This document shows, piece after piece, positions 12,971 through 13,693 of a DNA stretch of 64,000 bases. The first letter of the stretch is position 1; each line of letters opens with the position of its first letter. The notes beneath the pieces were generated by a model. It searched no databases and was not told the origin of the DNA. It saw nothing but the letters and a program-made list of their open reading frames with translations. Made by a program: the position numbers and the translations under genes. This DNA comes from Pseudomonas viridiflava (GTDB lineage: Bacteria > Pseudomonadota > Gammaproteobacteria > Pseudomonadales > Pseudomonadaceae), in assembly GCF_003702045.1 (NCBI RefSeq), contig NZ_RBTP01000076.1, forward strand, positions 120,257 through 184,256, written 5' to 3'.

Positions 12971-13660
12971 CTCGTTCTCCTGACATGGCGCGGCCTGTGG
13001 CTCACTGAAGCGGCGCAGCCTGTTAATAAATAAAGCGAAAAAAGGAAGAATGCCCGTCACGAACGTTCTGGAGCAAGCCTGAGGATAAATCACGCCATAC
13101 GGCCAGCGAGCTGTACAAAAAACGTACACATCAAGCAAACCCATACGCAGCAAGCCTTGCAGGCAGTTTTGCCCACGTTATCCACAGTCACACCCACAAA
13201 ATCCGGGGGCAACTCCGTCACCCTGCAGCACGCGCAAACCGGGGCGTGTAGCGGTCCTCGCAAAGTTTTTCCCTTGACATTGAAGCGCACGATAAATCGC
13301 GGCAAGGAGTGTACAGATTGCATGATGGCCTACAGCCCAACCCCAGCGGCCTCTATCCCGCTCTTTCCAACGCTTGCCCACAGACTTATCCACAGGCTTT
13401 GACAACAAATAAACTGTATGAACAACCAGCCTTCCACCTGTTGACAAATGGCTCGAATCAACGCTGAAAATCCACTGTACGAATTTTGAACACACCGCTA
13501 CAACCCTTATGCATCAAGGGCTTCAGGCAAATACTCCCAAGTTATTAACAGTCGGATCCACAATAAACGTGAACAAGTCCAAACTGTGACAAAACAACCA
13601 TTTGCAGCGGTTTTATGTCGCAGGTTTGAGGTTCGTCAAAAATGTTTTCCACAATTGTGA
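12971..13660. other. Non-coding stretch with DnaA-box-like sites
   Basis: The gap between the SDR and liv genes has no convincing gene. It holds two perfect TTATCCACA sites (13178-13186 and 13386-13394, both on the plus strand) and a facing pair of relaxed sites, TTTTCCACA at 13645-13653 and the complement of TTTTTCACA at 13656-13664. It also has a GTACAAAAAACGTAC palindrome-like site near 13114. The second half (about 13380-13660) is visibly A/T-richer than the surroundings. There is no dnaA or dnaN gene here, so it is not called a replication origin. Confidence 0.5.
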
Positions 13661-13666
13661 AAAACA

Positions 13667-13693
13667 CGCCCCGAGTGCATGACACTCGGGGCG
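13667..13693 (-). terminator. Terminator of the liv operon
   Basis: An 11-base perfect stem (CGCCCCGAGTG/CACTCGGGGCG) with a 5-base loop lies about 30 bases after the livF stop on the minus strand. It is followed there by TGTTTTT. Confidence 0.85.

Follow-up and report, generated by a model that had tools for sequence, protein, structure and literature searches.

The locus analyzed here raises the question why several DnaA boxes are gathered in non-coding DNA between an SDR gene and the liv operon of Pseudomonas viridiflava. The window, i.e. the whole analyzed stretch of 64 kb, lies on contig C60, and dnaA with its box cluster is found at C13:280601-282472. The locus thus lacks the adjoining dnaA expected of oriC. 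A preliminary description had reported two perfect TTATCCACA boxes at 13178 and 13386, non-coding and partly A/T-rich surroundings and no dnaA nearby. All of this is correct: both boxes are present on the plus strand, and the GC content goes down to 0.41-0.48 over about 13350 to 13700. A DnaA-titrating or reactivation site, a DnaA-controlled promoter and chance had been offered as explanations.

The box-bearing stretch is intergenic and both neighbouring genes read leftwards (Table 1). The SDR protein is 97-98% identical to its counterparts in P. asturiensis, P. cerasi and P. alliivorans, which places the window in a Pseudomonas near the P. syringae group, and livF was named by its position next to other liv-like genes. 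The earlier list of boxes was incomplete, as it missed the weaker partners, a fourth site at 13542 and the two minus-strand boxes at 11692 and 11737. Of a facing pair proposed around 13645-13664 only one half stands. The plus-strand TTTTCCACA is conserved, and the minus-strand TTTTTCACA is the T-run of the liv terminator, found in the window's own sequence only among 30 loci (L054, L061 and L074 read TGTGGACA nearby, as judged by eye). The terminator stem itself is poorly kept in sequence (column identity 0.344 in the 29-genome alignment). As a DARS core this pair was rejected, its gap being 2 bp and its minus member an unconserved terminator tail. A known RNA family at the locus was also dismissed, for Rfam gave two tRNAs only in the whole window. 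These tRNA genes (40658-40741 and 40906-40989) have equal Rfam scores and start 248 bases apart. Plasmid relatives were discarded as well, since in the six records found the matches were weak and partial, covering no more than 25% of the query at 72-77% identity.

Table 1. Features in the window and related loci elsewhere in the same genome (window positions unless a contig is given; mean matches and column identities refer to 29 aligned genomes)
Feature	Position	Strand	Remarks
GlcNAc-2-epimerase-like gene	10970..12205	+	PF07221, E 1.5e-38
Second perfect box in epimerase-like gene	11692..11700	-	from window box count; not generally conserved
Perfect box in epimerase-like gene	11737..11745	-	kept at codon level; exact in 20/26 genomes, own included
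SDR gene	12206..12970	-	PF00106, E 8.2e-47
Weak box TTTTGCCCA	13167..13175	+	2 bp ahead of B1; top double-box score in window; mean 6.1/9
B1, perfect DnaA box TTATCCACA	13178..13186	+	strong box of module 1; identity 0.996
Module 1, second, weaker box ACACCCACA	13190..13198	+	3 bp past B1; offset 12 in 29/29
Module 1, inverted degenerate box (CGGGGGCAA on +)	13204..13212	-	5 bp further; offset 26 in 29/29
Weaker box TTGCCCACA	13374..13382	+	3 bp ahead of B2 (double DnaA box); mean 7.8/9
B2, perfect DnaA box TTATCCACA	13386..13394	+	identity 0.985
B4, TTATTAACA in window	13542..13550	+	first box of module 2; mean 8.5/9; identity 0.881
Module 2, second box GGATCCACA	13554..13562	+	offset 12 in 29/29; 6.6/9
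Module 2, inverted box (CGTGAACAA on +)	13568..13576	-	offset 26 in 29/29; 6.5/9
B3, TTTTCCACA	13645..13653	+	identity 0.946; 103-104 bp after B4 in 28/29
TTTTTCACA, T-tail of liv terminator	13656..13664	-	not a conserved box (terminator fold and relatives)
Intrinsic terminator-like stem, downstream of livF	13665..13695	-	14 pairs, 9 of them G-C, then T run
livF, final gene of liv operon	13724..14440	-	PF00005, E 4.9e-34
Sister locus (L040), two modules 202 bp apart	C60:7023-7259		between YigZ/IMPACT-like gene and ABC transporter
Sister locus (L037), two modules 112 bp apart	C4:69055-69201		between gcvR-like and rarD-like genes
Sister locus, one strict module	C4:32102-32136		upstream of gbcA-like gene
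Further strict match	C13:260562		gap 19

Perfect boxes are in clear excess. The window contains four against 0.22 expected, and none of 100 shuffles reached four. The whole genome comprises 96 TTATCCACA sites versus 19 for the reversed control word. Of the 96, 40 surround dnaA on contig C13 (252 to 410 kb). The remaining 56 sites, outside this oriC stretch, form 15 pairs at most 500 bp apart versus 0.28 expected under the assumption of a uniform spread. The genome-wide count proposed in the preliminary description thus reveals further clusters, but several of them are copies of the conserved module described below.

In the whole genomes G018, G010 and G003 TTATCCACA is rare far from dnaA. Among the matches listed, G018 has one of its 133 sites between 1.34 and 4.0 Mb, G010 has none of its 122 in the stretch from 2.1 to 4.2 Mb, and G003 has 7 of 80 in its far half.

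For the conservation of the locus 57 genomes, 36 of them from the genus, were searched with livF, which gave 30 loci. Five of the remaining six genus genomes (G001, G008, G012, G013 and G028) were read as well, and G014 stayed outside. The 30 loci (own included) show at least two perfect intergenic boxes in 27 cases, one box in two and none in one, the last because liv and SDR lie apart there. No box was found in the 4.9 kb read around livF of G008; G012, G013 and G028 gave distant livF paralogues only, without boxes, and in G042, from another family, the 4.1 kb around an SDR relative are likewise free of boxes. Named genome records gave 542 SDR loci, of which the best 80 were taken (78 with Pseudomonas in the title). 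This sample leans to close kin and shares some genomes with the 30 livF loci. Each of the 80 has one or more perfect boxes upstream of SDR, 76 have two or more, and in 74 livF adjoins. The conservation among related strains on which the preliminary description had made its reading depend is therefore present. A pair of perfect boxes whose gap is 188-214 occurs in 99 of 119 genus genomes among the matches listed, with zero in every control, although this pattern also catches one of the sister loci described below and unrelated pairs.

The alignment comprises 29 of the 30 loci (L064, where liv and SDR are apart, was left out). Mean column identity outside the boxes is 0.652 versus 0.881-0.996 for the strong boxes. 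The weaker partner boxes reach 0.762-0.920 and so overlap the best non-box 9-mers (95th percentile 0.861, maximum 0.920), which means that not all of them stand out from the ordinary DNA of this stretch. Short TTGAC(A) motifs at 13270-13279 and 13440-13449 are conserved as well and show no promoter match.

Such counts, made without a tree, are inflated by relatedness, and related genomes share sequence by descent. Chance or inherited likeness without function would nevertheless have to explain why conservation is far higher in the strong boxes than in the DNA that separates them and why spacing within the modules is constant while that from B1 to B2 varies. A box inside the neighbouring epimerase-like gene points in the same direction. 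The VDNW residues are present in 22 genes (own included), and in 20 of these the nine bases at 11737 are exact, although GAT is used slightly less than GAC in such genes (215 versus 249). Four more epimerase-like genes did not reveal these residues in the matched stretch, and none of the four has the box there. For the second box of this gene, VDK is coded with an 11692-type box in 3 of 26 rows, a count made irrespective of aligned position. As judged from these sequence comparisons, the conservation among relatives rules out chance for the box cluster, contrary to the last of the earlier alternatives, and we regard functionless likeness of either origin as next to negligible.

What is conserved is not merely a number of boxes but an arrangement. 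Each module consists of a box, 3 bp, a weaker box, 5 bp and an inverted weak box; this inner spacing is identical in 29 of 29 aligned genomes, while the distances between modules vary (B1-B2 138-221; B2-B4 156 in 24 of 29). At B4, 23 of the 29 rows read TTATTCACA or TTACCCACA. The second box of module 1 has on average 6.1 of 9 consensus matches versus a background of 3.05 (column identity 0.762), and its inverted box reaches a column identity of 0.920 yet has only 5.6 of 9 matches. Deviations are found in L052, which lacks the middle box of module 1, and in L076, where the B2 pair is swapped. When offsets around the strong boxes were scanned, B1 and B4 each showed weaker boxes at +12 on the same strand and at +26 inverted, and B2 showed one at -12. 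Rival offsets scored equally or better (B1 -11, B1 +34 inverted, B4 +43 inverted with 6.8), so what speaks for the +12/+26 module is that it recurs, at B1 and B4 as well as elsewhere. In the window, six double boxes spaced by 2-3 bp passed the score; 13167-13562 contains five of them, and some of these have a strong box in common. The module distances were also considered for helical phasing, from which no claim is made.

Recurrence was followed with a strict pattern, TTATCCACA-N-GTGNNNAA, with gaps of 10 to 26 allowed. It is present in 40 of 40 genus genomes against six control matches in total, and among the 150 matches listed the gap is exactly 18 in 104 and each other value is found in at most 10. 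Neither module of the window conforms to it, since the inverted part of module 1 is GGGGGCAA and the first box of module 2 is not perfect; their membership therefore rests on the offset scan and the 29/29 spacing. In the own genome three other intergenic loci match with gap 18 (Table 1; neighbour names were read by eye from translations).

Some of these sister loci have counterparts elsewhere. Pairs of the C60:7023-7259 type, with boxes 202-203 bp apart, recur in G018, G010 and G003, and those of the C4:69055-69201 type, 112-113 bp apart, in G018 and G003. The stretch C4:31787-32664 (L036) contains five perfect boxes in 0.9 kb, the densest group outside the dnaA stretch, four of them between the end of an ORF and the gbcA-like gene; up to four strict modules occur at a similar place in relatives, a judgement based on the motif in the matches listed. 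An extension of the module beyond the family was rejected. In 54 genomes from other families of the order gap 18 accounts for 8 of 64 matches and the next gap for 6, without a clear peak, and four of those eight resemble DARS cores by eye.

One role for boxes upstream of a gene would be that of a DnaA-controlled promoter, through which the SDR gene or an unannotated transcript would be linked to the cell cycle. SDR indeed has the stretch as its upstream region, and B1 lies about 200 bp away from the start of the gene; in G023, where liv is about 17 kb off, SDR has kept one perfect box and a TTTTCCACA next to it. The locus also sits between SDR and livF in most relatives, so that a role tied to these genes stays conceivable. 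Against it, a sigma-70-like promoter was not found in the stretch (a weak test, with shuffles averaging 0.7), and in G001 the 4.7 kb read contained two modules, at about 1.0-1.2 kb from livF, while no SDR gene was found there. The strict module moreover stands beside unrelated genes (YigZ/IMPACT-like, ABC transporter, gcvR-like, rarD-like, gbcA-like), and one conserved box lies within a coding gene. The modules of G001, the sister modules by unrelated genes and the intragenic box make a simple promoter site improbable, and the promoter alternative, although weakened and not removed, is considered unlikely.

As a further alternative the stretch could serve chromosome organisation or bind a different protein with the same 9-mer as its target, with no relation to DnaA activity. 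Such a role could account for the conserved columns outside the boxes, i.e. the TTGAC motif near 13274 and TTGACAAA near 13441. The same 9-mer, however, clusters beside the organism's own dnaA, at the presumed oriC, and this alternative appears very unlikely. The box is mentioned for oriC in PMC3056050.

If DnaA is the ligand, the known systems of Escherichia coli offer the closest comparisons. There DnaA is described to bind in vivo mainly to double boxes 2-3 bp apart, an arrangement given for 15 of 16 DnaA ChIP regions, typically with one strong and one weak member (PMC11317965). The pairs of 9-mers described here have the same spacing and composition. They differ in being part of a non-coding cluster, in carrying a third, inverted box in two cases and in being predicted from sequence. 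The weaker box 3 bp before B2 repeats the arrangement of the double boxes that Table 1 of PMC11317965 gives for datA, oriC and purH, and the datA double box listed there, cTTGTAAACAgagTTATCCACAg, closely resembles cTTGCCCACAgacTTATCCACAg at 13373-13395.

With datA the locus further shares same-strand boxes about 70-210 bp apart, one double box with a 3-bp gap before a perfect TTATCCACA (13374-13394) and a place outside oriC. It has no adjacent tRNA genes, in contrast with datA, and contains three-box modules. PMC4585315 describes datA as dependent on IHF between its boxes. An exact IHF consensus, which the E. coli datA control has and which would be expected between boxes 2 and 3, is found in one of the 29 aligned loci only. 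With one mismatch the best column reaches 12 of 29, and with two mismatches 27 of 29, figures that apply equally to a comparison with the IHF site of DARS2, which has Fis sites as well. An IHF-dependent datA was rejected on this ground. What the locus does possess are the general features of a titration site, namely a number of boxes close together in non-coding DNA that is conserved and lies outside oriC.

DARS offers the second comparison. The DARS1 core of MG1655 was measured as TTATCCACT, 5 bp, inverted TGTGGATAA, 3 bp and inverted TGTGTATTA. Both the DARS1 and the DARS2 core comprise three boxes, one of them inverted, separated by 3 and 5 bp, and the DARS1 core read on the other strand (9-mers at 0, 12 and inverted 26) has the geometry of the Pseudomonas module. 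The modules at 13178 and 13542 both agree with it in geometry only. In the Pseudomonas module the strong box is the outer one and the inverted boxes are weak, so that a strong near-consensus facing pair is absent (inverted boxes with on average 5.6 and 6.5 of 9 matches in 29 genomes). The locus also differs in having two modules with extra boxes, other neighbouring genes and sister copies throughout the genus. A reactivating function of this kind would mean that the modules bind ADP-DnaA, pair its molecules head to head, release ADP and so raise ATP-DnaA. The geometry kept in 29 of 29 genomes is in its favour, together with the description of the opposed core boxes I and II as driving ADP release in E. 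coli (PMC8682772). The same source reports for box V of DARS2 that ADP-DnaA sits mainly on the strong box and ATP-DnaA spreads to weak ones, a preference that the weak inverted boxes described above do not suit. Moreover, E. coli has two DARS loci and not several sister copies near the origin.

A much better core candidate exists elsewhere in the genome. At C42:99244-99266 (L043) two perfect boxes face each other with a 5-bp gap and are followed 3 bp on by TGTGAACAG; this is probably the canonical DARS core of this genome, as far as its sequence indicates. Facing pairs of this type occur in 81 of 99 genus genomes, with a 5-bp gap in all matches listed (1-10 allowed), and TGTGAACAG follows them in 29 of 30 relatives read as well as in the own copy when the context is turned to the better side. 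In a sample of 76 genomes across the order, 10 (the own one among them) have the pair, at 11 places in total, 10 of which show gap 5. Fis and likewise the DARS2 core are described as conserved specifically in E. coli-related gamma-proteobacteria (PMC4245941), and none of the titles and abstract openings listed from an open-access library describes datA, DARS or DnaA modules for Pseudomonas. Reactivation by the modules of the window is regarded as doubtful. Membership of the locus in the datA or DARS class is not established: the titrating or reactivating role suggested in the preliminary description gains from the double boxes, the DARS-core spacing, the steady distance to dnaA and the sister copies, and its comparison with datA and DARS loses from the exact IHF site in one of 29 loci, the missing strong facing pair and the canonical core at C42:99244.

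The position on the chromosome is the remaining line of evidence. The distance between livF and dnaA is 576-739 kb in 10 of 11 complete genomes, on either arm, and the exception is G029 with 2.25 Mb. Such a distance is expected to survive inversions symmetric to the origin, so its steadiness is compatible with positional selection and does not prove it. Strict modules with gap 18 lie within 1.0 Mb of dnaA in 37 of 39 cases from the eight complete genomes whose matches are listed in full, a bias which single boxes share and which therefore does not represent independent evidence. Conserved relative distances are described for datA and DARS sites in E. coli (PMC5010248), and boxes there are reported to crowd near oriC, with DnaA titrated on the chromosome (PMC12371093).

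The anatomy of the Pseudomonas locus together with the double-box and titration parallels in E. coli favours a sink, with a DARS-like role in second place. We therefore suggest, at about even odds (roughly 0.5), that DnaA binds to this conserved non-coding stretch and that the locus acts on DnaA itself, as a sink flanking the origin, and not on the adjoining genes. DnaA would nucleate on the strong 9-mers and spread to the weaker boxes 2-3 bp off as well as to the inverted box, 5 bp further along, and the small oligomers formed in this way would hold it. The locus and its sister modules on both arms would be duplicated soon after initiation, because the locus is about 0.6-0.7 Mb from oriC, and would then draw down free DnaA, probably in its ATP-bound form. 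Binding, oligomer formation and the sequestering output are the steps that we infer here; the boxes, their conservation, the recurring strict module, its fixed inner spacing and the distance to dnaA were observed directly.

In Bacillus subtilis DnaA-box clusters that flank the origin outside oriC restrain initiation. The Pseudomonas locus resembles them in being origin-flanking and outside oriC, a likeness drawn without regard to spacing and across different phyla.

Taken further, and with somewhat less confidence than the sink itself, the dispersed three-box modules of Pseudomonas (this locus and at least three others in the same genome) may form, together with one canonical DARS core, a distributed network of DnaA control. 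Its modules would occupy unrelated intergenic sites, mostly on both arms and within about 1 Mb of oriC, and the DARS core would be located further out, a layout proposed just as tentatively. If this is true, a network built from one type of module would take the place of the single datA and the two DARS sites of E. coli. To our knowledge the limits that keep initiation to once per cycle are poorly known outside the E. coli group. A conserved and precisely spaced module in much of a large genus provides named sites that can be deleted, moved and tested, and the number and place of DnaA sites bear directly on titration models of initiation. For the organism itself, the locus may help to set the amount of active DnaA in the cell.
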